Below are positions 4,495 through 25,771 of a DNA stretch of 27,916 nt, piece by piece (the first letter of the stretch is position 1; every line of letters starts with the position of its first letter). Both the position numbers and the translations under genes were made by a program. Under the pieces are notes generated by a model. The model was not told where the DNA came from. It saw nothing but the letters and a program-made list of their open reading frames with translations, and ran no database searches. Source of the stretch: a virus; IMG/VR virus record IMGVR_UViG_3300009481_003737, positions 1-27,916 of that record. The stretch is one strand, 5' to 3'.

Positions 4495-4656
4495 GTGAAC
4501 CCAAGGATTCAGGCCACGGTGCGCCCGGCCCTCAAAAAGTGGCTGATGCGGGTCGCCAAACGGAACCACATGAGCCACTCCCAGGCCCTCAAGGAGCTCG
4601 TCGAGGAAGCCAAGGCCAAGGGCTGGGCGCCGTCGAGGAGCCGGCGTGGCGAGTGA
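4495..4656 (+). CDS. Ribbon-helix-helix-like DNA-binding protein (53 aa)
   Basis: A GTG at 4495, one base after the previous stop, opens a 53-residue ORF. The order strand-helix-helix is visible: NPRIQATVRPALKKWLMRVA, then a turn at about residues 24-28 (RNHMS) and a second helix SQALKELVEEAKAKG, followed by a basic tail SRSRRGE. Short proteins with this alternating strand, then two helices with a Ser/His N-cap on the second, are typical ribbon-helix-helix (Arc/MetJ/CopG-like) DNA-binding dimers. The assignment is by pattern only. It is coupled by GTGA to a winged-helix-like gene and lies about 640 bases upstream of a phased 11-bp repeat array, a possible target. Confidence 0.65.
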   Translation: MNPRIQATVRPALKKWLMRVAKRNHMSHSQALKELVEEAKAKGWAPSRSRRGE

Positions 4657-5027
4657 GCACCTGGGGGCGGTTTGAGGACGGCTGGCAGTCCAGCGTCGAC
4701 ATCGTGGGGCTGTCGCACAGCGCACGCTGTCTCCTCGCGCAGCTATGGCCCATGGCCGTGGCGAAGGTCTCGGACGCGACGCTGCCCCTCAACGGGGAGG
4801 ACGATGCGAGGCTTGAGGCCAAGTATTTAGAGCCCACGTTCCTTGCCGGTCGGTGCGGGATGACGGCAGAGCAGGTCGGTGAGTTCATGATCGAGCTGAT
4901 CGAGGCCGGACGGGTTCTGTCACCAGTCGGCGACGGCCACTGGACCATCGTTGGGGTCTGGAAGATGAACCGCGTGGCCGTGAAGGACCGGGTCTACCGG
5001 GCCAATAAAGCGAAGAGGGCCAAGTGA
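4653..5027 (+). CDS. Winged-helix-like protein, possible replication or regulatory factor (124 aa)
   Basis: The GTG at 4653 overlaps the previous stop (GTGA); longer starts fall inside the upstream gene. The protein opens STWGRFEDGWQSSVDIVGLS. It has a helix (SARCLLAQLWPMAVAKV), an acidic loop, a helix-turn-helix-like stretch (CGMTAEQVGEFMIELIEAG) and a beta wing (RVLSPVGDGHWTIVGVWK), then a basic C-terminal tail. This is the layout of the winged-helix N-terminal domains of phage replisome organisers and related DNA-binding proteins. Here only the DNA-binding part is present. It is coupled to the next gene by another GTGA. Confidence 0.65.
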   Translation: MSTWGRFEDGWQSSVDIVGLSHSARCLLAQLWPMAVAKVSDATLPLNGEDDARLEAKYLEPTFLAGRCGMTAEQVGEFMIELIEAGRVLSPVGDGHWTIVGVWKMNRVAVKDRVYRANKAKRAK

Positions 5028-5272
5028 GCAAGCTGCACCGAGTCGAGCTCGTCGGCGGGAAGCACGACGGGACGGTGATCGAGATTCCTGAGCTCCGCGA
5101 GAAGCTCATGATCCCCCTGGACCGGACGGACGGCGAGCTGCTCAAGAAGGGCGGTTTCACCAGTGCGCCGAGCGACCACATGCGCCTTGTCACCTACCTG
5201 CACGACGGCTCCACGCCGGACCTGCACATCCGCTACACAGTCGACTGGCTTCAGCGGAACTGGAGCGCCTGA
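5024..5272 (+). CDS. Small hypothetical protein (82 aa)
   Basis: It starts at GTG 5024 within GTGA. The protein begins VSKLHRVELVGGKHDGTVIE, and reads as a small beta-rich domain: short strands around Val/Ile-rich segments, a Gly-rich turn and a final HIRYTVDWLQRNW strand/helix. The VELVGGxxDG start is a pattern I associate with small uncharacterised phage proteins, without a known role. It is the last gene before the 430-base repeat region, so it closes the RHH/winged-helix operon. Confidence 0.65.
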   Translation: MSKLHRVELVGGKHDGTVIEIPELREKLMIPLDRTDGELLKKGGFTSAPSDHMRLVTYLHDGSTPDLHIRYTVDWLQRNWSA

Positions 5273-5290
5273 GCACGCACTTTTCGCCCG

Positions 5291-5389
5291 TCGCGATCGA
5301 ATCGCGATCGAATCGCGATCGAATCGCGGGGGGGTCGCGGACCAGTCGCGGGGGGTGCGCGGAGGACTCGCGGGGGGTGCGCGGAGGTC
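5291..5389 (+). repeat. Phased 11-bp repeat array A (9 units)
   Basis: Ninety-nine bases divide exactly into nine 11-bp units, each starting (T/G)CGCG. Units 1-3 are identical (TCGCGATCGAA). Units 4-9 keep the CGCG core but have G-rich tails (for example TCGCGGGGGGT followed by GCGCGGAGGAC), so units 6-7 and 8-9 form two near-identical 22-bp repeats. The period equals roughly one helical turn, which places the cores on one face of the DNA. No convincing gene overlaps it. Candidate roles are a packaging recognition site, an iteron-like origin, or an operator for the RHH protein encoded upstream. Confidence 0.85.
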
Positions 5390-5496
5390 GCTCTGCCGCT
5401 CGGCCAGCCGGCTGAAATCCTGCTGATCGACGCTCGCCGTCCTTGAGCTCGTGTGCTCGAAACCCTCCATAGCGTGCCGAAAACAGCCTTCAAGGC

Positions 5497-5551
5497 CGCG
5501 ATTCCAACGCGATTCGATCGCGATTCGTCCGCGATTCGATCGCGATTCCAA
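5497..5551 (-). repeat. Inverted phased 11-bp repeat array B (5 units)
   Basis: Five contiguous 11-bp units, CGCGATTCCAA, CGCGATTCGAT, CGCGATTCGTC, CGCGATTCGAT and CGCGATTCCAA, followed by CGCG. The set is symmetrical (outer pair, inner pair, centre). Read on the minus strand they contain the same ATCGAATCGCG element as array A, so A and B are inverted relative to each other across about 107 bases. The two arrays could pair as an imperfect stem of some 45 bp in single-stranded DNA or RNA, or both could be bound by one oligomeric protein that loops the DNA. Confidence 0.85.
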
Positions 5552-5560
5552 CGCGACGCT

Positions 5561-5585
5561 ACGTTACGAGACGGGACGAGACGCC
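5561..5585 (+). repeat. Five ACGNN 5-bp tandem repeats
   Basis: Five successive pentamers (ACGTT, ACGAG, ACGGG, ACGAG, ACGCC) follow array B directly. The 5-bp period is about half of 11, so every second unit again falls on roughly one DNA face. It may be a diverged extension of the same repeat system. It is short, and could also be chance in GC-rich DNA. Confidence 0.5.
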
Positions 5586-5646
5586 CCTCCGGGCGGCTCG
5601 GGCTCGGCCCGACTCGTCGGAGGGGGGTGGAGGGGGGAGGGGTCGG
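5584..5646 (+). promoter_or_regulatory. Nested GC-rich hairpin and G-tract upstream of packaging genes
   Basis: CCCCTCCG at 5584-5591 pairs with CGGAGGGG at 5618-5625. Inside it, TCGGGC and GCCCGA form a second stem with a TCG loop (5598-5612). The right arm continues into runs of six, six and four G (5622-5642), enough for a G-quadruplex or slipped structure. No T-run follows, so it is not a standard intrinsic terminator. It lies about 55-115 bases before the GTG of the next gene. Between it and that gene only a TTGACG box (5647) and a Shine-Dalgarno are seen. Confidence 0.45.
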
Positions 5647-5700
5647 TTGACGAAATGAGCGCCAGGGAGGAACCTGTGGAGAACCCAGGAGGATCACCCC

Positions 5701-6219
5701 GTGGCCGAAAAGCAAACTGCTGCTGAGAAGAAAGCTGCTGAGAAGGCCAAGGCTGAAGCTGAAGCACTGGCAGCTGCTGAGGAGGCCAAGGCTGAACAGC
5801 TCAAGCTGGACACTGCCTACAACGAGGGCTACGAGCTCGGACTGATCGGGCTGACCTGCCAGGTGCCAGACGGCATGGGCGAGGAGATGGCCGATCGTTT
5901 CCAGCTGGGCCACGGCTTCGGCCTCGAGCAGCGTGGCCAGGCGCTGGATGCCAACGCTCCAGTGGCGAGGGCATCGAACCCTGTGCACGTCTGCTCCCCC
6001 TCGGACGAACAGGTGAAGGCGGGCGACATGACGCCCTTCCAGCGACGTGAGCAGGCCCTGGACCATGCAGCCGGGCGAGACCGTCGCAAGGCAGCAGCCC
6101 CCCTTCCGCGCAACGTGGCAGCCGTGTACGACGAGGACGGCAATCTCCTGCCGACGCGAGAGCAGACTCGCCGGGCTGCCATGAAGGCTGCTGCTGCTGA
6201 GGCTGCTGCTGAGGCCTGA
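5701..6219 (+). CDS. Ala/Lys/Glu-rich protein with RMF-like motif (172 aa)
   Basis: The GTG at 5701 has an AGGAGG site nine bases upstream. Residues 1-37 form a highly charged Ala/Lys/Glu helix. Residues about 39-79 contain a pattern like ribosome modulation factor and related phage modules: GY-x2-G-x2-G at 43-50, Pro56, then F67, G70, G72 and G74 in place of the usual W-x2-G-W. The rest is disordered, with an Ala/Glu C-terminus encoded by GCTGCTGAG repeats. It is the first gene after the repeat region and sits two genes upstream of terL. It could be a packaging or DNA-binding accessory protein, or the small terminase; the RMF-like motif suggests but does not show nucleic acid binding. Confidence 0.7.
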   Translation: MAEKQTAAEKKAAEKAKAEAEALAAAEEAKAEQLKLDTAYNEGYELGLIGLTCQVPDGMGEEMADRFQLGHGFGLEQRGQALDANAPVARASNPVHVCSPSDEQVKAGDMTPFQRREQALDHAAGRDRRKAAAPLPRNVAAVYDEDGNLLPTREQTRRAAMKAAAAEAAAEA

Positions 6220-6221
6220 CG

Positions 6222-6761
6222 GTGGGGCTGAGCGAGGAGGAGCTGCGGAAGCTCCACGGCGGCGCAGCTCCCATCTCGGTGCCAAAGCCTGAACCGGCGA
6301 AGAAGGCCGGTCAGAAGCTCATCAAGAAGCCGGCGCCCCGGACGCCACCGAAGGGGACTCGCATCCCCAAGGTGCCGAAGGCGATCCAGGAGCAGCTGGA
6401 TGTCTTCGAGTTGTGGATCGCCAAAGCCTTGGACCGGAGCGAGCTCGACCCCGGGCAGGGCGCCGTCATGCGGATGCTGCTGGCCCAGGTGCCGGGTCTC
6501 AAGCCAGAGAAGCGGGTCGCCACGTTCAAGGAGCTGGCCAGGATCCGCGGGCTCTACAGCGCGAAGTCGAAGGTCATGGACCAACGGCCTCCGAGCGAGC
6601 TCTCCACCCTCGAGCTGATCCAGGTGATCGGCCACGGCCTGGGCCTCGTTGACTGGCAGGGTGTGACTCCGTCGCAGCTCCCCGACCCGACGCCGGCTGA
6701 CTACTCGGCTGTTTCTGTGCCTACCGAGGGGATGCTCGACGATGACAGCCGCGTCATCTGA
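6222..6761 (+). CDS. Putative small terminase subunit (179 aa)
   Basis: It starts at GTG 6222, two bases after the previous stop, and overlaps terL by 20 bases. The N-terminus is a Pro/Lys-rich linker (about 15-50). Residues about 55-135 are helical (IQEQLDVFELWIAKALD; AVMRMLLAQVPGL; VATFKELARIRGLYSAK; TLELIQVIGHGLGLVDW). The C-terminus is acidic and disordered. The position directly before the large terminase, the size and the helical core fit a small terminase subunit that recognises the packaging site and forms a ring. No diagnostic helix-turn-helix is visible, and the upstream gene is a competing candidate. Confidence 0.5.
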   Translation: MGLSEEELRKLHGGAAPISVPKPEPAKKAGQKLIKKPAPRTPPKGTRIPKVPKAIQEQLDVFELWIAKALDRSELDPGQGAVMRMLLAQVPGLKPEKRVATFKELARIRGLYSAKSKVMDQRPPSELSTLELIQVIGHGLGLVDWQGVTPSQLPDPTPADYSAVSVPTEGMLDDDSRVI

Positions 6762-8454
6762 GGCCGCCTACCTCCGGGCCTGTCTGGAGGAGCTCTACCA
6801 CCGGGTCATCGTCGATCCGCCGATGTTCCTGACCTGGTCGCCACATAAAAAACAGGCCCTTTTTTTACTTTCGCAGGCTCAACAGAAAATCAGCATCGGT
6901 GCGAACCGGACGGGAAAGACCGAGGTGCTCGTGTACGAGGGCGCCGAGAGGCTGGCTGGCTGGTCTCCCTCGCTCACTCGCTACCACGGCAAGCTGGTGG
7001 TCTACCCGGATCAGCGCACCTGGATCGTCAGCGAGGATCTGGACGTGTCGAAGGACACGGTGCAAGCGAAGCTCGAGACGTTGCTCGACCCGAGCATGGC
7101 AGTGCGCTCCAGCCGCGGGCTTGATGATTGCTGGAAGAAGGGCGACCTGACGTGGACGAACCCGACCACCGGCAACTACCTGAAGTTCAAGAGCGTCGAC
7201 CAGGGCAGGGCTAGCTTCCAAGGCCGCTCGATGACTTGGATCGGGTTCGACGAAGAGCCGAAGGACGAGACGGTCTACGACGAGAGCTACGCCCGCATCC
7301 TGGACTGTGGCGGGCAGATCGCCTTCGCCTTCACGGCGGTCGACGGCAGCCGTTGGTTGCACACGCTCATCATGGGCGAGACGGAGGACGTGTTCTCTGT
7401 GTCGATGGGAGCGATCGACAATCCGCACCTGCCGGACGACTACATCAAGAAGGCCGAGAGGCGCTGGAAGCCTGGCAGCGACGATCACCGCATTCGGATC
7501 ATGGGCGAGTACATCCTCCGGTTCGGCAACCCCTACTTCGACCGTCAGCAGCTCGACTGGTTCGCTGACTATCACACGGTCGACTACGACGACCCGGACG
7601 CGCTGGTGAGCGATCTTGGCAGGATCAAGGCCGGAAAGACCTACTGGTCTGGGAAGGTGACCTGGAGCAACGCGGGCAAGCCGAAGTTCACGTTCCTGCA
7701 CAACGGGGCGCTGAAGATGTTCCGAGTGGCCCGCCAGGGGCGCCGCTACATCGTGAGTTCGGACTCGGCCAGCGGTGAGATCGACGGCGACTTCCTCTGC
7801 GCCCAGGTGATCGACACGCATTCTCTCGAGCAGGTGGCCGTCTGGCGCGGGAGGATTGACCCGGGGACGTTCGGCAGGATCCTGGCGGTTCTGGCCAGCT
7901 ACTACAACGCGGCGATGATCGTGCCCGAGACCAACTTTCACGGGACGGCCACGCTCTACGTTCTGCAGCAGGAGTGCCAGTACGGGAACATCTACACCCG
8001 CCAGCAGGTCGACAAGCGGGCCAACCAGAAGACCACCGCGTCGTCGGTCGAGGGGCCTCAGAGCGTCATGCGAGTGGGCTGGTACACCGACCGGAAGACC
8101 AAAGAGCAGATGATGGGCTGGCTCAAGAACCTGGTTGGCACCCAGGATCTCGTCATTCACTGCCCCCAGACTCTGTCCGAGATGAGGGCCTACGGCTACC
8201 TCCGAGACGACACCTCGAGATTCGGCCTCGGGGCCATCTCAGGACACGATGACACTGTCGACGCGCTGGCTATCGCCCTGCAAGGCGTGGCCCAGGCCGG
8301 CGTGAACCCGAAGTCTGTCGTCGACATCGAAGAGGACATTGGAGAGCAGCTGGTGGCCCTTCAGGAGCAGATAGAGGACGGCGGCGTCTCTGATTGGCTT
8401 GACGAAGGGTGGGGCTCTGCCGAGGATGACAGTGATCCGTTTGACCCCTTCTGA
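6742..8454 (+). CDS. terL: Terminase large subunit, ATPase plus nuclease
   Basis: This is the motor that pumps and cuts concatemeric phage DNA into the prohead. The ATPase shows an adenine-binding SPHKKQ motif (33-38), Walker A GANRTGKT (53-60), Walker B WIGFDEEP (166-173) and a probable coupling motif AFTAVDG (196-202). The RNase H-like nuclease has its acidic residues at SSDSASG (Asp341), VPETN (Glu396) and GHDDTVDALA (Asp503/Asp504). At 570 residues it is somewhat longer than P22 gp2 (499). Start ATG 6742 overlaps the preceding gene by 20 bases. Codons 35-50 form an unusual AT-rich island with a T-run, in contrast with the GC-rich third positions around it. Confidence 0.95.
   Translation: MTAASSEAAYLRACLEELYHRVIVDPPMFLTWSPHKKQALFLLSQAQQKISIGANRTGKTEVLVYEGAERLAGWSPSLTRYHGKLVVYPDQRTWIVSEDLDVSKDTVQAKLETLLDPSMAVRSSRGLDDCWKKGDLTWTNPTTGNYLKFKSVDQGRASFQGRSMTWIGFDEEPKDETVYDESYARILDCGGQIAFAFTAVDGSRWLHTLIMGETEDVFSVSMGAIDNPHLPDDYIKKAERRWKPGSDDHRIRIMGEYILRFGNPYFDRQQLDWFADYHTVDYDDPDALVSDLGRIKAGKTYWSGKVTWSNAGKPKFTFLHNGALKMFRVARQGRRYIVSSDSASGEIDGDFLCAQVIDTHSLEQVAVWRGRIDPGTFGRILAVLASYYNAAMIVPETNFHGTATLYVLQQECQYGNIYTRQQVDKRANQKTTASSVEGPQSVMRVGWYTDRKTKEQMMGWLKNLVGTQDLVIHCPQTLSEMRAYGYLRDDTSRFGLGAISGHDDTVDALAIALQGVAQAGVNPKSVVDIEEDIGEQLVALQEQIEDGGVSDWLDEGWGSAEDDSDPFDPF
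6861..6867 (+). other. Slippery heptamer T-TTT-TTA within terL
   Basis: In the terL frame the codons read CTT TTT TTA, so T TTT TTA is a classical X-XXY-YYZ slippery site in correct phase. It lies in an AT-rich island that also has a run of six A (6847-6852) and uses CAT, CTT, TTT and TTA codons that are rare here. A -1 shift would read about 85 more codons and stop near 7123, removing both the ATPase and nuclease domains. No downstream pseudoknot was identified. Confidence 0.3.
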
Positions 8455-8657: not shown

Positions 8658-10382
8658 ATGCACAACTACGTTCCTCGGCAAGCCAACTTCACGAACACGC
8701 TCGATGCTCAGGTCATCGCTGGAGGTCGCTGCCGACTGGACGCGATCACCGTCCAGCACCTGGGCATCGACGCGGGCGCCTTCGAGATCATCAACATCCG
8801 GGCCCCCGGTGGTGGTGACGTGCTCTGGAGTTTCGCTTGGCCAGCAGGCGAGACAGACATCGTTCAGATCCCGATCACCCTGCCCCTCGGCGGGCTGGTG
8901 TGCCCCAACGGGTTTGAGCTCCAGGTCGAGGGCGGCAACGCGAACGCGAACGTGAAGGGCTCGATCCAGTACGGCGTGGCTCGCAAGGATCTCGATCTGG
9001 TCATGGTCGACACCTGGACGCTGACTCAGGTGGGAGAGTTTGCCAGCCCGAGCTCTCCGATCACTCACCCGATGATCGGCCTTGAGACCCGGGCGAACCC
9101 GCCTGCATCTGGACCGCTCACACTGGCCACCGACACGGATGACATCGTTGCCATCATTCCACCTGGCTACGACGACGCGGGCGGCAAGGGTGTTCCTATC
9201 GTGGTCGGCTACCACGGCCATGGCCTCACGGCAGGCGCCCAGGACCCGTTCAATCTGAGCATCCTCCCTGACGTTTGCCGGGAGGTCGGCGCGATCTTCC
9301 TCTCGGTGACGGGCTATGACGGCCTCACCTGGCCGTCGTCGATTTGGTCCACGACAGGCGGCGGCGGAATGCTGCATGTCGACGCTGCCATCCAGTGGGC
9401 TCTGGATCGTTTCAACGTCGACCCCGATCGGATCTTCATGTCCGGGTACAGCGGTGGAGGGTGTCACGCGCTGACCTACGCGGCCACGCACCGAGATCCC
9501 GCTGGCATCATGATCGCCGGCGTGATCCCGTGCGCAGGCCTGCCCGACGTCGTTCAGCGCTACCATGCGCTCTCAGGCCCATCGGACGAGACCGACAAGG
9601 CGGACAAGGCGAGCATGGAGTTCGCCAGCAACATGAACGGTGGCTACGTCACAGCTGCAGAGCAGCACCGTTTTCAGCGAGTGAGCTCTCTCTACATCGA
9701 CGAGGCAACCTACGTTGCTGGGTCAGGCGGCGGAACCTATCAAGGCGCGAAAAGCCAAGGACTGAGCCTTGAGGGAACGGCTGTCTGGCAGTTCTACGAC
9801 ACACAGGACACCACGACCGTTGGTTTGCCCAACCAGAACGACCAGCTGTACGACATGCTCGTTGCAGCCGGCCACACGGACATTCAGCGCACAAAGACGT
9901 CAGACGCTGTCAATCCGCACGACTGGGACCTGCTGATCCCCAAGAAGCAGGAGCTCATCCAGTGGATCCGCACCCGTCGGGTGAACCGCTATCCATCGAA
10001 CTTCAAAACGTGCACGCCCGAGGGTTTGCAGGTGGCGAGCTTCGCTGAGATCACAGCTCCGACGAGCTCATTCGCCAGGCAGAGAACCGCGACGTCTCCC
10101 GGCGTCATGGCGATCACGCTTTCAGAGCTGAACAACCTGAACCAGATCCGCTGGGACTTCGAGAAGACAGCCTTCTCGCATCTCTCTGGAGGCGTCGGTG
10201 ACCCACTCTCGGTCACGGTGCCGAACAACTCGGCCACGCTGCAGGTGACCAACCTGTCCTGGACGCCAACCGTCGTGACGGGGGCCGACGCCTTTACTAT
10301 CAACCCCGCTGGAATCCCAGCGACACTTCACCCAGCGGTTGAGTTCACGAAGGCCCTGGCGGGAACGGTGACCATCGAATGA
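8658..10382 (+). CDS. Virion-type alpha/beta-hydrolase (esterase) with N-terminal anchor domain (574 aa)
   Basis: Residues 1-110 form a beta-rich domain with GGRCRLDAIT (22-31) and GLVCPNGFEL (79-88); the same features recur in the next gene. Residues about 155-445 are an alpha/beta-hydrolase of the PHB-depolymerase/feruloyl-esterase type: an oxyanion-region VVGYHGHG (182-189) and a nucleophile elbow DPDRIFMSGYSGGG with Ser265. A probable acid (Asp381 or Asp384) and His421 in NPHDWDLL complete the set. The last ~130 residues are another beta-rich domain. No signal peptide is seen, so it probably acts as part of the virion, de-esterifying a host surface polymer. Substrate is not predictable. 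The gene lies between terL and portal, an unusual place for a receptor enzyme. Confidence 0.8.
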   Translation: MHNYVPRQANFTNTLDAQVIAGGRCRLDAITVQHLGIDAGAFEIINIRAPGGGDVLWSFAWPAGETDIVQIPITLPLGGLVCPNGFELQVEGGNANANVKGSIQYGVARKDLDLVMVDTWTLTQVGEFASPSSPITHPMIGLETRANPPASGPLTLATDTDDIVAIIPPGYDDAGGKGVPIVVGYHGHGLTAGAQDPFNLSILPDVCREVGAIFLSVTGYDGLTWPSSIWSTTGGGGMLHVDAAIQWALDRFNVDPDRIFMSGYSGGGCHALTYAATHRDPAGIMIAGVIPCAGLPDVVQRYHALSGPSDETDKADKASMEFASNMNGGYVTAAEQHRFQRVSSLYIDEATYVAGSGGGTYQGAKSQGLSLEGTAVWQFYDTQDTTTVGLPNQNDQLYDMLVAAGHTDIQRTKTSDAVNPHDWDLLIPKKQELIQWIRTRRVNRYPSNFKTCTPEGLQVASFAEITAPTSSFARQRTATSPGVMAITLSELNNLNQIRWDFEKTAFSHLSGGVGDPLSVTVPNNSATLQVTNLSWTPTVVTGADAFTINPAGIPATLHPAVEFTKALAGTVTIE

Positions 10383-11439: not shown

Positions 11440-13635
11440 ATGCCCGTTGTAGGCAGAGCTCCCCCGCGGACGCTGCCCAGGCCGACGACGAAGGTCTGGA
11501 GGCAGGGCGACCGTCCACAGCTCGACCCTGTCACGCGCTCGGGGCTGTCGTGGGTCAAGGAGATCCAGGACGTTTCCGGCGGTTGGCTCTACGAGCTCAG
11601 GCGCCAGTGGGCGATCAACAAGGCCGTGCGCATCGGGCAGCAGTACGCTCGTTTCGACGGCGGCCAGGCCCGCACAGGAGCTGCCAGGAAGAACAGCAAG
11701 AACCGGGTGCGGTTGTCGGTCAACGTCATCCACCCGGTGGTTCAGACGTTCATCGCCCTGCTGCTCAAGACCAAGCCGGCGCTTTACGTCATGCCTGCCA
11801 CGGGCGACATCGACGACCGCGACCGGGCCAAGGTGGCCGAGAAGATCCTCGATCACGAGTGGCGTGCAAACGGCATGGACAGTCAGCTGGTGGCGCTGGC
11901 TGGTTGGCTATTCGAGACGGGGGCAGCCTTCACCGAGACCTGGTGGGATCCAACGTCTGGAGGAATCCAGGAGGCCAAAGACGAGCAGGGAAACCCGCTC
12001 TACGACCCTGACTCCGGCAAGCTGCTCGTCGACAAGAACGGCAAGCCTCTTCGCTACGCTCTCGGGCGCACGCGCATAGCCACGGTCCCACCGTTCCAGA
12101 TCACCGCTGACCTGAACGCGATGACATGGGATGAGATCAACTGGGTCAACCGCGGGCGCATGATGCCCCTGTCTGAGATCCGCAGGCGCTGGTGGTGGGG
12201 CCAGTTCGTGAACCCGGAGCCGTTCGACGTCAACAACAGCGTCGAGTCCCAGTTCAACCGCCTCACGGCTGCCAACAGCTCGGGCGACTTCGGCACGCTT
12301 CAGGGTCGAAGCGAGTGGGCGCGAGTGAACACCTGCTACGTCCGGCCTGGCCAGCGCGTCGGTGATCGGATCTACGAGGACGGCGCTCTCATCATCGAGT
12401 GCCAGGGCATGGGGCACATCGAGCGCATCCCGTTCGAGGATGCCCCGGGCTACGACCCGCAGGTCGACTGGAACCCGTTCACCATGTTCCGGTGCTACGA
12501 GGTTGGTCGCTTCTGGCCGATGGGTGTCATCGACAACGTCTGGCCGATCAACAAGGAGATCAACCGGCTCGAGTCGGGGATCATGGAGTGGGTCGGCACA
12601 TCGGTCTACCCGAAGTGGCTGCTCCCGAGCGGCTGCGGCGTGACGGACAAACAGCTCACTCGAGAGGCTGGCGAGAAGGTCCGTTACAATCAGACGGCTG
12701 GCCCGCCGAAGATGGTCGATATGCCGCCGCTCCCAGCGACGGTCATGCAGATGCTGCAGCACATGCACGAGAACGTCGACACCGTGAGCTCGCAGCACGG
12801 ACCGTCTCGTGGTCAGGCCCCCAGCAACATCAAGTCAGGCATCGGCCTGTCCTTGCTCCAGGAGCAGGACGCCACCGACATGGGGCCGATCACCACACTC
12901 TTTGAGGGTTCCTTGGCCCAGCTCGGCAGGCAGATCCTTCTCCGAGACAGCCAGTTCTGGAAGGAAGACAGGCTCGTCCGCGTGATGGGCAAGAACCGCC
13001 AGATCGAGGTGTTCCGTTTCTCTAGTGCGGATCTTGGTGGAAATGTCGACGTTCACGTCGAGGCAGGCAGCGGGCTCCCCAAGAGCAAGGCGGCGCAACA
13101 GAGCTACGCGAAGGTGCTTGTCGAGCTGGGCCTTTACTCGCCGATGATCCCCGACCAGCGGCGCAAGTTGCTGCAGATCATGGAAACGGGCGACGTCGGA
13201 GAAGTGTTCGACACGTCGAAGGACCGTCGCCGTGCGCAGTTCGAGAACGACCTGATGGTGAAGGGGCTCGTCATGCCCCAGCCGGCCTGGTACGAGGACG
13301 GCGATGCCCACCTTCAGGAGCACATCGACTTCATGAAGGGCGATATCTACGAGAAGGCCAAGGCGGAAAACCCGCAGGTCGAGGCCTTCTTCCAGATGCA
13401 CCTGATGATGACCTTCCAGAACATGAGCCAGCTCGGCGGGCAATCAGCAATGCCAGGCCTCGGCGGCTCGATGGCCGGTCCAGGAGACGCCATGGGCACC
13501 CCAACAGGGCCTCCGCAGGCGGCAGGATTCGACAATGGACCGTCGGACGGGAGCCTCCCAGGCATGAAGATGACCCAGTCCCAGGACGACAATCGGGCCC
13601 AGACCGCTGGTAGCGGCCCGCTCGCCGGTGCGTGA
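11440..13635 (+). CDS. Portal protein (731 aa)
   Basis: This forms the dodecameric ring at the unique capsid vertex through which DNA enters and leaves. The length (731) is close to the P22 portal (725). Supporting features include an N-terminal helix and strand region ending in LSVNVIHPVVQTFIALLL (91-108), the KILDHEWRANGMDSQ helix, Trp/Tyr-rich wing sequences, a PINKEINRLESGIMEW helix (368-383) and long C-terminal helices. The last ~60 residues are Gly/Met/Gln-rich and disordered. The position between terL and scaffold/coat supports the call. A start at ATG 11440 has a good G-rich ribosome site. A siphovirus-type portal would be shorter, so the size argues for a podovirus. Confidence 0.85.
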   Translation: MPVVGRAPPRTLPRPTTKVWRQGDRPQLDPVTRSGLSWVKEIQDVSGGWLYELRRQWAINKAVRIGQQYARFDGGQARTGAARKNSKNRVRLSVNVIHPVVQTFIALLLKTKPALYVMPATGDIDDRDRAKVAEKILDHEWRANGMDSQLVALAGWLFETGAAFTETWWDPTSGGIQEAKDEQGNPLYDPDSGKLLVDKNGKPLRYALGRTRIATVPPFQITADLNAMTWDEINWVNRGRMMPLSEIRRRWWWGQFVNPEPFDVNNSVESQFNRLTAANSSGDFGTLQGRSEWARVNTCYVRPGQRVGDRIYEDGALIIECQGMGHIERIPFEDAPGYDPQVDWNPFTMFRCYEVGRFWPMGVIDNVWPINKEINRLESGIMEWVGTSVYPKWLLPSGCGVTDKQLTREAGEKVRYNQTAGPPKMVDMPPLPATVMQMLQHMHENVDTVSSQHGPSRGQAPSNIKSGIGLSLLQEQDATDMGPITTLFEGSLAQLGRQILLRDSQFWKEDRLVRVMGKNRQIEVFRFSSADLGGNVDVHVEAGSGLPKSKAAQQSYAKVLVELGLYSPMIPDQRRKLLQIMETGDVGEVFDTSKDRRRAQFENDLMVKGLVMPQPAWYEDGDAHLQEHIDFMKGDIYEKAKAENPQVEAFFQMHLMMTFQNMSQLGGQSAMPGLGGSMAGPGDAMGTPTGPPQAAGFDNGPSDGSLPGMKMTQSQDDNRAQTAGSGPLAGA

Positions 13636-14851: not shown

Positions 14852-16213
14852 ATGGCTGCGTCAACTCTTGACGTCTACGATGCTTTTCTCAAGGACTGGT
14901 ATCTGAGCGAGTGGGTTGACCAGCTCACGAGCATGACCACGACCTGGCGCTTGCTGCGCCGCAAGCTGACCAAGTGGGCCGGCAAGCAGATGGTCATCCC
15001 GATCCGCAAGGGCCGCAACTGGGGTGTCGGAGCGATCCCGACCTCTGCCAGCGGGTCGATGGCCACGCTCAACGTGGCTGGCCACCAGAGCGTCGATCGC
15101 GTGCTCGTCGACGGCAAGCTCGTCACCGGCGCGTTGCAGATCGCGCAGGACACGATCGACAAATCGAAGGTCGACCGCGGCGCGTTCTTCGAGGACCTGG
15201 ACTTCGAGATGCGTGGACTGGTGGACGACGTGGCCGACTACGTCGACAACGTCTCCCACCTGGCTGGCAACGGAGCCCTGGCCACGATCACCCAGGTCAC
15301 GAGTGGCACCCAGCTCACGGTCGACAACCACCAGCCCTTCTTCGACAACATGCGGATCGAGTGCTGGTCTTCGACGGGCGCTGGCACGACTGACTTCACG
15401 GCCAGTGGTGACGCTGCTGTTGAGGCCAACCTGCCTTCTGGTGGGCTCGTTCAGGTCATCTCTGCGGTCCAGCGCAACGTGGACGGCAGCGGCGTACTGA
15501 CGATGGTAGCCACGGCTGGAGCGGCGATCGGTTCCAATCTGGCTCGGGCCGGCTCTCGGAACACGGGAGCTGACACTGGCTACGAGCCCATGGGTCTTCC
15601 CGGCCTGATCTCGAACGCCAACCCGCCCCTCGATTCCACCTTCCAGGGCATCACGCGGACGGGCAACAACTGGTGGCAGTCTCTTGAGACCGATGCCACG
15701 AACTCGACGTTCAGCGAGGATCTTCTGCAGCAGCAGATCGACTACACCCACGACACGAGCCGTGGTGACATCGACTACCTGATGACGCAGCGGATCACGC
15801 GGCGGAAGATGTTCACGATCCTGAACCCGACGGCTGCTCTGTCTCGGTTCTCCGACACCAATGTCATCACCCCTGGCTTCCTGGGCGGCAAGGTCGAGGA
15901 CAAGCACCCCGAGGGCAGCGACTTCCTGTTCTTCGACGGTCGCATCCCGATCATCGTGGATCGCTTCTGCAAGCTCGAGATCGACAACATCACCGTCAAC
16001 GGCCCCTACCACTTCGGAACGATCTACGGCCTGGACATGGACACGCTCTACGTGGCGCTCATCACCGACTTCACCTGGTGGGCACCCGAAGGTCGCATCC
16101 TGCACCGCTCAGACAGCCGGGCCTTTGGTGTCCTGGCCGACCTGTACCTCTACGGTCAGATCGTCTGTGACGCTCCCAACAAGAACTTCCAGCTGAAGAT
16201 CGACCTGAACTGA
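14852..16213 (+). CDS. Major capsid protein (453 aa)
   Basis: The protein starts MAASTLDVYDAFLKDWYLSE. It has HK97-type layout: an N-terminal helix, a basic beta/E-loop-like stretch (QMVIPIRKGRNWGVGAIP), a long acidic spine helix (FEDLDFEMRGLVDDVADYVD, about 111-130) and a beta-rich central part. The C-terminal part begins around LMTQRITRRKMFTILNP and ends FGVLADLYLYGQIVCDAP. Length is close to the P22 coat (430). A GAGGT ribosome site precedes the ATG by nine bases, and a GC-rich hairpin follows the stop. The order scaffold, coat, adaptor supports the call. The coat fold itself cannot be proven by eye. Confidence 0.85.
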   Translation: MAASTLDVYDAFLKDWYLSEWVDQLTSMTTTWRLLRRKLTKWAGKQMVIPIRKGRNWGVGAIPTSASGSMATLNVAGHQSVDRVLVDGKLVTGALQIAQDTIDKSKVDRGAFFEDLDFEMRGLVDDVADYVDNVSHLAGNGALATITQVTSGTQLTVDNHQPFFDNMRIECWSSTGAGTTDFTASGDAAVEANLPSGGLVQVISAVQRNVDGSGVLTMVATAGAAIGSNLARAGSRNTGADTGYEPMGLPGLISNANPPLDSTFQGITRTGNNWWQSLETDATNSTFSEDLLQQQIDYTHDTSRGDIDYLMTQRITRRKMFTILNPTAALSRFSDTNVITPGFLGGKVEDKHPEGSDFLFFDGRIPIIVDRFCKLEIDNITVNGPYHFGTIYGLDMDTLYVALITDFTWWAPEGRILHRSDSRAFGVLADLYLYGQIVCDAPNKNFQLKIDLN

Positions 16214-21800: not shown

Positions 21801-24672
21801 TGGGCATGTGCCCGAGGCTGCCAGGGCCTTCGTTGACGACGAACTAAAGGCGGCGTGGATCTGCGATGTGGACGGCGGGCCAATCGTCATCGACGACGCC
21901 GGTGGTCTTCACCTGGGTCTAGACGATCTGATCTCTGCGGTTGCGCCGAGTGGCACCGAGTACCAGTGGGTCAATCTCGAGGGCGGTGGCAGCTCGAAGA
22001 CCTTCGACCACGACTACACCTACAACCGCGGCACACGATCTTCGATGTTCCCGTCCGCGCTGATCCCTGTCCGCAACGTGAACACTGGTCGATACGACAC
22101 GCTCTACACGGAAGAGTTTTCGGACACCGTGGTCGTTGCTGCACTTGGCGCGAGTGAGCTCCCCAACGTGGACCCCAGCAAAGAGACGCTGCTTGCATGC
22201 CTTGGACATCTCCGAGCGTCTAAGAAGACCGACATCCTCGTCGTCAGTAAGACCGCGGTGCTGAGGTACGACGACGCAGGTGCTGGATCACTCACTAGAG
22301 TCGGACCACTTCCCCAGCACTTCTCTGACCAGCACGTTGTCTCGAGGGATGTGAGCGCTGAGCGGACGGTGCTGACCAACGGCGCAGCGAACCCCGTAAT
22401 CCTCGGTGCTGACTCCCGGCCACGGCAGACGGAGTTCCTGAACCCGCCGATCTACGGCGTGCCAGTGATCTGGGCCAGGACGTGGACGCTGGCAGAGAAC
22501 AACGCCGGTGAGGTGCCCGATGCGTCAGAGTGGCCGTTCGTCTTCAAGGTGGCCTACGAGACGGTCTACCCTTCGAGTCGGTCGGTGATCGGCATCGAGC
22601 GCGTCGAGGCGAGCACGGGCCTTCGCTGGACCGGCGAGATGCCCAGCCTCATCAACGACCCGGTCGGGCAGTCTGGCTGGGGATTCACCATCGAGGGCCT
22701 GGCGCGGACGCCGCCGACGGACATCGTCAACTGGCGCTTCTTCTTCACCTACTGGAGCGAGCGCCTGCAGGTCGAGTCGTTCCCTGGACGGGTGTTCACC
22801 TGGGCCAACGCTCTGCCCTTCCGCCCACCAGTGGCTGGGTCGACTGACCTCGGCGCCAACAGTGTCTTCACCCCTGTCCCCGACAACCGCTACACCGGCC
22901 TGCCGGCGAACCACGGGCTGGTCTTGGTCATGCGCGGGCAGACGCCCCTGAACGCGACCGAGATCCTTCCTGACACGGCTGGCGTCTCGGGCACGCCGAA
23001 GACCTACAACCTCCGCATCCGCAACGTGCCCCTGTCCCCCGACCCGGACGTAAGTCATCTGCGGGTCTACCGCACCACGGCCAACGGAGACGTGTTCTTC
23101 CTCGAGCAAGAGATCGCCATGGTGGGCGGCGCTGGCTCGAAGGACGATCGGATCACTGTCACGGTTGGCACCAAGGCCGACTACGAGCTCTCCGTTCCGT
23201 TCGTCTCCGGCGTGGCCAGCAGGGTGCCGGTCGGCGCGAAGTTCACATGCGCATTCCAGGGCAGGGTGTTCTACGCAGGATTCCCCGACCGACCCTATCG
23301 GATCATGTTCAGCTACGTCGATCAGCCTGGGGCCGTTCCATTCTTCTACTTTGTCGATCTCGTCTCTGGTGGCAGCGGTCCGATTACTGGGCTGTACGCG
23401 GACGACAACAGGGTTTGGGCTCACAAGGAGACGGGAGTCTACGTCGGCATCGTGCGTGACTTCGACATCTACGGTCTCGAGCAGGCCAGCGCCGGGTTGC
23501 CCGTCTCGTTCGACATGCTCAAGCAGAGCGTGGGGATGGCTGGCGACCGCTGCATTGCGACGATCCCCGAGAGAGGGACTGTCTTTGCTGGCGACAGCTC
23601 CGTCTGGCTGCAGCAGGGCACCCAGTTCGTGCGGGCCTCCGTGCCCATCGACGGTGAGACTGCTGACGACCTGGTGGAGACAACGGACCCCGCGCCCCTC
23701 GCTGAACAGCGGCTGCTCTACCCGTTCGCCTGGGACAGCACGCGCCGGGACAGGTGGATCGCCATCTGGAACGAGCACAACCGCCAGGTGCTCTTCTTCG
23801 GTGGCCCCGGAGACCCCGTGTGGGTGCTCCACCCCGATCTCATGGAGTGGTCGTTCTACACAGGCTGGGACTTCGACGATGTGACTGTGGTCAACAGGAT
23901 CGGCAGCGCAGCGCTCGAGATGTTCGGTGTCAGGGACAGCCGTCTCTGGTTGATCGACAGCGGCTACAGCGATGGCCTCGACTACAGCAGCGAGGACCTC
24001 GACGGGGAGGCCTTGGTCAGCGGAGCAACCGACCTATCCACTGGCACGATCTCGGTGGTCAACAGCACGACCGACATCAAGCTGAGTCTCCTAACGGCAT
24101 CGTTGCCAGCTGCCTACGCGGCGATCCTCAACCCGACGTCCATCCAGAAGGTCGAGGGTGACCTGCTCCGCAGCACGGTGATCCGCATCTCTGGCTCTGG
24201 CGTGTCAGCTCAGTCGAAGATCGACTACGCCTTCGATGACGCCGGCAACGTGCGGGTGTTCCTGGAGACGCCGATCGCAGGCATGGTTGCTGGGATGACC
24301 TTCTGGCTGGGCGACATCCCAACCCACTGGGTGTCCAACTTCATCCAGCCCTCCGACGGCCTGCTGACGGCTGAAGGCCAGCGTCTTGAAGTGCGCCGCA
24401 AGGATCTGAAGGTGACGCTCGATGGGGCTGAGCACCGGGCTTCACCCAGCTTCTACTGGCGCTTCCGTGAGACATGGCCCGAGCTCGCTGACCTGCTCTT
24501 CAAGTTCTCCTCCCCCACCCAGCGGAGGTTGCACATGACCAACGTGCGCGGGCGCGGCCACGGGTTTGTCGTCGCTGTCTCGTCCGAGGGCGCCTACGCG
24601 CCGCTCGAGCTCACGAGTGGGTCGATTCTCTCGAACGTCCTGGGTGACATGGGCCGGGTGGACGGTGGCTAG
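18865..24672 (+). CDS. Giant tail hub protein with lectin-like insertion (1935 aa)
   Basis: Starts at GTG in GTGA. The N-terminus, [19 protein letters not shown] (9-27) followed by ARNVTL and LRGRRG, is typical of short-tail hub proteins such as P22 gp10 or T7 gp12-type tubular proteins. From about 1100, repeated hub blades appear ([65 protein letters not shown]), ending with [11 protein letters not shown] and [19 protein letters not shown]. Between ~70 and ~1050 lies a large insertion. Within about 240-440 there is a LamG/concanavalin-like pattern ([13 protein letters not shown], then [13 protein letters not shown]). Known hubs of this class are a few hundred to about 800 residues, so this is unusually large. 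The insertion may bind a host surface carbohydrate. Confidence 0.75.
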
Positions 24673-25771
24673 GCAGAACCAGATTGCTCGTATCCCTGGC
24701 CGTCTGGCCGGCACCGAGCTGCAGGGACTGCAATCTGCAGCGATGGCCTTGATGGGCAAGAAGGACCGGGAATCGCCTCCGATGAAAGGCCCCGAGTGGG
24801 AGCTCTTCGAGGCCCATCGGCGAGACATCGACGGTCTGGCCAACATCCTGGCCAACCTGATCGGGCTGGTGCCGAACAACAAGCGCCCTGGAGTGCCTGG
24901 CAAGCACGGCCCGGAGGGCGCGGATGGCGAGCAGGGCATCCAGGGCGACAAGGGCGACAAGGGCGACCCCGGCCCTCCTGGCCCCCCAGGGCCGCCGGGC
25001 ACGTGCACTTGCACTGGCATCGCTCTCGACGGTTTCGAGATCCTGGCCGGCCAGACAGGCAACTTCGCTTCACAGTCCGTGCCCACTCAGGAGCCCGACA
25101 GCTTCTGGCACCCCGAGCACTACGCCGAGCTCCGCGGCTGGACCCTTCCCCGGTGGCGCTCGAGCGAGGCTGATGAGCTGCCCCCTCGTTCATGGCCCGG
25201 GCGGCTCCACGTCAGGGTCAACAAGGATCTGGTGCACCCGCGGGCGTGGCTCGGCGACTCAACGGGCACTTTCCGTGTGTCTACGGGGCGGTTTGCCCGG
25301 GAGCCATCGGCTGGGGCGCCAGCAACGGGGCCGGCCATGGAGGACGGCGTTCGCTACCTGGACACGTCGCTCGACAAGCCGGTGGACATGGTGCAAGAGT
25401 CAGGTGGGGTGCGCTCCACCAGCACTCGCACCGTTCTCTACGCGAGGGCCGGCACCGTTGGTATCGGCGTGCCACTCGGCATCGGCGGGGTCGCCAGGAC
25501 CCACGGTGGGTACAACTGCCCCGAGGACTGCTCACTGCACACCATCACGGCGATTCGAGCAGGCGGAACGTCAGGGGCCACCTACAACATCGTCGAGTCA
25601 GACGGCACCGTAGAGGTGATTCGGGGCAGCTTCGCGTTCACCACCACGGCGACAGAGGCGAAGTGGACGGGAAACATCCTCTTCAACAAGGGAGTGCGGG
25701 TCAGCGTGAAGACCACGGCGGCCAGCAACATCCACAGCCAGGTCGCCCTGCACTTCAAGGACAGGGTCTAG
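24665..25771 (+). CDS. Collagen-like tail fibre protein (368 aa)
   Basis: GTG 24665 overlaps the hub gene by eight bases. Residues 42-70 form an amphipathic helix, likely a trimer seed. Residues 76-111 are twelve uninterrupted Gly-X-Y triplets ([12 protein letters not shown] ... GPP GPP GPP), a collagen-like triple helix. Cys114 and Cys116 (GTCTCTG) follow directly and could lock the trimer by disulfides. The C-terminal ~250 residues are beta-rich (for example [31 protein letters not shown]). Phages commonly use such collagen-like segments as flexible or rigid spacers in fibres. It is likely a receptor-binding fibre attached to the hub. The C-terminal domain family is unknown. Confidence 0.8.

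Follow-up and report, generated by a model that had tools for sequence, protein, structure and literature searches.

The lambda-type origin carries its iterons within the O initiator gene (PMC7466680), and the RepA_N-type iterons of PLE and of staphylococcal plasmids are bound by the DNA-binding domain of the initiator (PMC7145576); these two are the nearest descriptions found for the element analysed here. For the RepA-type mycobacteriophages no repeats were identified in the regions examined, and repA itself or the DNA upstream of it was suggested as the place of the origin (PMC7157519). In plasmid R1, the parC site is formed by two repeat clusters with a promoter in the middle, and ParR requires its 11-bp repeats (PMC5016525, PMC9426499). 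A literature search, with subscription papers largely outside its reach, turned up no account of phage initiators with arrays phased at 10-11 bp, which is weak evidence for novelty. In the present study we analysed the window, an IMG/VR virus fragment of 27,916 bases without defined ends, and we propose that a pair of inverted 11-bp repeat arrays in it is an iteron-type loading site for the phage replication initiator, a reading to which we give a probability of about 45%.

The late genes of the window are podovirus-like, with terL at 6742-8454 (plus strand; phrog_2, E 3e-17), portal at 11440-13635 (phrog_156) and capsid at 14852-16213. In the head-gene region the middle of the protein encoded at 8658-10382 weakly matches alpha/beta hydrolases, and a probable tail fibre protein (24566-25771) contains a collagen-like repeat (Pfam PF01391). 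Both arrays are located in 5273-5700, the sole long stretch near terL that is free of genes; its 428 bp are without a plausible gene, as the first-pass annotation had described. The left array (5291-5389, plus strand) is formed by nine 11-bp units with CGCG at 5292, 5303, 5314, 5325, 5336, 5347, 5358, 5369 and 5380, in the exact register claimed for it earlier. In the right array (5497-5556, minus strand, pointing toward the left one) CGCG occurs at 5497, 5508, 5519, 5530, 5541 and 5552; its inversion had been recognised correctly, but it had been credited with five units ending at 5551, and the sixth core moves its end to approximately 5556. All 15 cores are thus placed at steps of exactly 11 bp. 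The spacer of 107 bases reported previously holds between the unit limits used at that time (5390-5496), the gap from the last left core to the first right core being 113 bp (5384-5496).

The units combine a constant TCGCG core with three variable bases 3' of it, in agreement with the conserved core and varying tails noted before. When reading begins at the T of TCGCG, the left array consists of TCGCGATCGAA three times, followed by TCGCGGGGGGG, TCGCGGACCAG, TCGCGGGGGGT, GCGCGGAGGAC, TCGCGGGGGGT and GCGCGGAGGTC; seven of the nine units have the core TCGCG and two GCGCG. The first three are perfect copies, and the last six form a diverged, G-rich half with a 22-bp alternation. On the minus strand the right units, of the form GAATCGCG plus the three variable bases, are TCGCGTTGGAA, TCGCGATCGAA, TCGCGGACGAA, TCGCGATCGAA and TCGCGTTGGAA, and then TCGCGGCC, so that the variable tails stand in the symmetric order TTG-ATC-GAC-ATC-TTG. 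The inverted relation of the arrays is evident from the comparison of 5291-5340 with 5496-5545, which are 88% complementary over 50 nt. A pattern of four CGCG at 11-bp spacing has nine matches in the window, every one inside the two arrays, and none in 100 dinucleotide shuffles of the window. The arrays and their phasing are far beyond chance; the pair is a real, ordered element, and it is probably bound by protein. These data support the earlier description of a phased, protein-bound element whose two arrays face each other across a spacer.

Two further features follow the right array on the plus strand. Six 5-bp units ACGNN in direct reading (5555-5584), with a period-5 peak, abut the array and may represent an accessory repeat. 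A GC-rich hairpin with G-runs occupies 5581-5650 (arms 5581-5591 and 5618-5628); it is not a standard terminator since it has no T-run. The G-runs after this strong hairpin, which belongs to the packaging-gene leader, could form a quadruplex.

The window is isolated in the collections. Protein scans of IMG/VR with TerL, capsid, portal, a portal alignment and the large tail protein returned portals 21-29% identical at best, and comparison of portal and capsid places the nearest named relatives at 22-27% identity. Among named phages, the array-flanking genes and the array DNA gave nothing useful as queries, and the exact pattern GAATCGCGNNN repeated three times has no match in IMG/VR besides the window. 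With no close relative at hand, the class was therefore sought by pattern. Four consecutive TCGCG-N6 units are present in at least 120 viral contigs. Among the matches listed, these arrays lie mostly within an ORF, often just 3' of a domain ending like NWxKHQKIDRPxKPR, and the array-bearing ORFs tested, taken from different groups, all (10/10) match initiation, O-like, DnaD-like loader, replisome-organizer or primosomal PHROGs. A single BLAST-linked ORF cluster takes in 92 of the 120 loci listed; it was built by single linkage with the families checked for a sample of members, so that its edges may hold other proteins. When distinct arrays are counted after a length filter, 68 of the 98 among the matches listed are inside ORFs of this initiator cluster, versus 11.3 expected from random positions in the same loci. 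Steps of 11 bp are out of phase with the reading frame, and the repeat therefore cannot stem from the encoded protein. Several other arrays lie within or next to further replication genes (L037, L068, L082, L118, L130, L132 and L133).

The paired layout is also recurrent at the initiator loci. Among the matches listed, two or three arrays occur at 29 of the 92 initiator loci versus 1 of the 28 others, a proportion that does not reflect many independent events because the cluster shares ancestry. The gaps between paired arrays at these loci are mostly 110-187 bp, with a few of 31-53, and the gap of the window (107-113 bp) falls at the lower edge of this range. Array orientation at initiators is often undefined because many units are near-palindromic (TCGCGA), and the inversion is clearer in the window than in most of these loci. 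Arrays of 11-bp (sometimes 10-bp) steps, often paired 110-187 bp apart, are statistically tied to initiator genes elsewhere.

As a control we used TGCGC, a shuffled TCGCG of equal composition, which gave 103 matches, many of them plain tandem repeats. Distinct TGCGC arrays lie inside initiator-cluster ORFs in 20 of 82 cases, versus 2.1 expected, and TCGCG is much more strongly initiator-bound than TGCGC (Fisher p ~1e-9). That the shuffled core is also present in initiators weakens the idea of TCGCG as a special core, and thus helical phasing is the general property while the core varies. Short GAATCGCGCAA runs at 11 bp were also seen at L135, L138, L140, L150 and L155, which are candidate-phyla bacteria (Paceibacterota, Falkowbacteria, Moraniibacteriota and Uhrbacteria).

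The initiator genes of six named phages, picked by protein similarity only and not by the presence of an array, were then compared. The query was the initiator of an array-bearing contig, so that the choice of phages is independent of the array but not of the protein family. Redi gp61 contains two TCGCG arrays with an 11-bp step, one of 3 and one of 4 units, approximately 160 bp apart, and Fishburne gp61 arrays of 2 and 3 units at 11 bp. In Lamberg gp62, from a Gordonia phage, TCGCG arrays of 3 and 4 units run at 10 bp (L266 1671-1691 and 1883-1913), which suggests selection on the helical face and not on an exact unit length. The initiator gene of SoilAssassin has TGCGC three times at 11 bp, that of Powerball GCGAA three times at 11 bp, and that of Che8 no array. 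An 8-bp tandem GGGGAACA in 4-5 copies lies directly after the 11-bp array at the initiator loci L264 (1905-1960) and L265-L269.

This survey bears on the possibility that the arrays arose by minisatellite-like tandem-repeat expansion, including an inverted copy, and have no function. Plain 11-bp tandem runs of GAATCGCGNNN do exist in unrelated bacterial contigs, often without a meaningful ORF, and the many plain tandem runs obtained with the shuffled core point in the same direction. Against this, the unit tails of the window differ while core and exact spacing are kept, a second, inverted array has the same core, and the layout is like that found in initiators. We thus regard a functionless repeat as unlikely.

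Under the loading-site reading, the inverted 11-bp arrays would be iterons on which a phage-encoded DNA-binding protein of initiator type loads cooperatively. Each TCGCG core would hold one protein unit, and since consecutive cores are one turn apart, all units would stand on the same face of the helix, with the two arrays facing each other across the spacer. For every step after protein binding at the arrays we infer that the filled complex would mark the replication start by recruiting a helicase loader or the helicase. By analogy, the intergenic arrays of the window would do the same job as the arrays in initiators. Counting against this reading, the window arrays are intergenic and not within an initiator gene, and arrays are also carried by the head modules of podoviruses (L113, L125 and L093). 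The iteron-like origin, previously offered as an alternative, now has the most support among the readings.

Of the proteins encoded in the window, a 124-aa putative winged-helix protein (4653-5027, plus strand) would be the best candidate for binding the arrays. The model, of low confidence (mean pLDDT 60.6), shows helices and then a two-strand wing. In the structure comparison the best rows are mostly winged-helix regulators with Z ~4, and a Foldseek search with the model gave no significant match. The protein aligns collinearly with array-bearing initiators over 85 columns, at a non-significant 24% identity, a likeness that would suggest a relationship to them. The alignment stops where the array starts in the initiators; in the window, an 82-aa ORF with no assigned function (5024-5272, plus strand) intervenes. 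An alternative candidate binder is the 53-aa small helical protein encoded at 4495-4656 (plus strand), which has weak CopG/Arc-like matches. Profile searches of the 27.9-kb fragment with phrog_2149, phrog_1408 and DnaB returned no match for an initiator, helicase or loader.

The DNA around the arrays was also analysed for properties of an origin. No AT-rich unwinding element was found: no 40- or 80-bp segment at the arrays is unusually unstable, the spacer is not AT-rich (40-bp segments of at most 47% AT) and few parts of the window are as stable as the left array. Initiator arrays elsewhere have only moderate AT flanking (median at the 76th percentile), and the window stands at the 72nd. GC skew, which the first-pass annotation had put forward as a guide to an origin, marks none across the window and has no turning point at 5.3 kb. 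Folding of the leader RNA is better than that of shuffles (z -5.3). An RNA element was considered and discarded, since the excess folding follows from the inverted arrays, the same sequence folded as DNA gives the same result and there is no Rfam match.

The main rival to the loading site is an operator or organising site of the packaging and head operon, in which the protein encoded at 4653-5027 or at 4495-4656 would fill the arrays, loop the spacer and control transcription from 5701 on. The position of the arrays in a long untranslated leader, between early small genes and the terminase and head genes, is consistent with such a role. The rival owes its rank to three podoviral loci with TCGCG arrays in the portal, scaffold and capsid region: L113 and L125, which share the portal family phrog_156 with the window, and L093, which has a scaffold family in common with L113. 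At L113 (3461-3520) approximately five units like CGCGATTCGAA, identical to the consensus unit of the window, are found near the start of the scaffold gene. On the other hand, arrays in head modules are a small minority of the class, and a search with a sigma-70 pattern only located no promoter-like site. Operators seldom have 15 sites. We consider an operator possible, if rather improbable.

The location of the arrays had previously led to a terminase recognition or packaging site as the leading idea, that is, a pac/cos-type packaging initiation site bound by the small terminase. The arrays do immediately precede a candidate small-terminase gene and terL: the first downstream gene encodes a 172-aa protein with no family match (5701-6219, plus strand), and the next a 179-aa protein with a weak terminase-small-subunit match (6222-6761, plus strand; phrog_5334, E 0.02). 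Moreover, a short TCGCG array lies 330 bp upstream of a terS-terL pair at L021, and the array of L035 adjoins a T7-like terL. These are, however, the only terminase-adjacent cases among the 120 comparable arrays listed, most of which are in initiators. The relatives do not favour packaging either. Among those with finished genomes and physically defined ends, exact terminal repeats were found in Shocker (484 bp), Adat (1551 bp) and Jasmine (1330 bp), whose left ends are upstream of terL by 6.8, 4.6 and 4.7 kb, respectively. By analogy with them one would not expect a recognition site immediately before terL, although these relatives are very distant. In the relatives' loci L004-L014, among them Shocker and Adat, no period-11 array was found; their portals are only 22-30% identical and several of the contigs are short. 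The packaging idea therefore loses its leading place, and we judge it quite unlikely. In the Arthrobacter phages Adat and Jasmine an Lsr2-like gene (L008 377-934 and L261 3255-3812; L263 373-927 and L262 3767-4321) is present twice because it lies inside the long terminal repeats.

A further alternative is a parC-type, centromere-like partition site, bound by a ribbon-helix-helix ParR and keeping a plasmid-like prophage. It draws on the two repeat clusters around a promoter in R1 and the need of ParR for 11-bp repeats (PMC5016525, PMC9426499), and on the weak CopG/Arc matches of the nearby small protein at 4495-4656. Nevertheless, the single-sequence model of this protein has two helices and no strand, and it is not clearly ribbon-helix-helix; parC repeats are described as direct and those of the window are inverted; and an AAA_31 search of the fragment, in which the positive controls matched, detected no ParA-type ATPase. 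A ParM search of the fragment also returned nothing, although its control gave no match either. A partition site seems to us very improbable. Initiator loading is thus the most likely reading, followed by the operator, the functionless repeat, the packaging site and the partition site.

A broader and more tentative proposal, which we hold to be doubtful, is that several winged-helix families of phage initiators share one origin format, consisting of paired arrays with one site per turn, at 11 or 10 bp, and an initiator-specific core, and that in this podovirus the format has moved outside the gene to the early/late boundary as a portable, sequence-recognisable origin. If this were true, the origins of many uncultured phages could be found through helically phased arrays, and each array would reveal the DNA-binding specificity of its initiator. 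The phased arrays in the initiator genes of Redi and Fishburne are directly testable origin candidates in mycobacteriophages, and the window itself offers a specific, testable 270-bp element at an early/late gene boundary.

In comparison with the known systems, the window resembles R1 parC/ParMRC in that a spacer separates two clusters of 11-bp repeats, but the parC repeats are direct and no ParA-type ATPase was detected in the window. With the RepA_N iterons it would share repeats bound by the DNA-binding domain of an initiator (PMC7145576), as we propose for the window; those iterons, however, are semi-palindromic around an A-tract, whereas the units of the window are CGCG-cored and have no A-tract. 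As in the lambda origin, there would be tandem initiator sites, and in the comparison set the initiator gene itself contains the arrays, just as O does in lambda; the arrays of the window differ in their units of 11 bp, shorter than the lambda iterons, in being two and inverted, and in their intergenic position without an adjoining AT-rich region. In Mycobacterium phage Redi gp61 and its relatives (phrog_2149 type) the arrays are coding DNA in the initiator and are followed by the 8-bp tandem GGGGAACA, neither of which applies to the window, but they have in common with it two TCGCG arrays in exact 11-bp steps.
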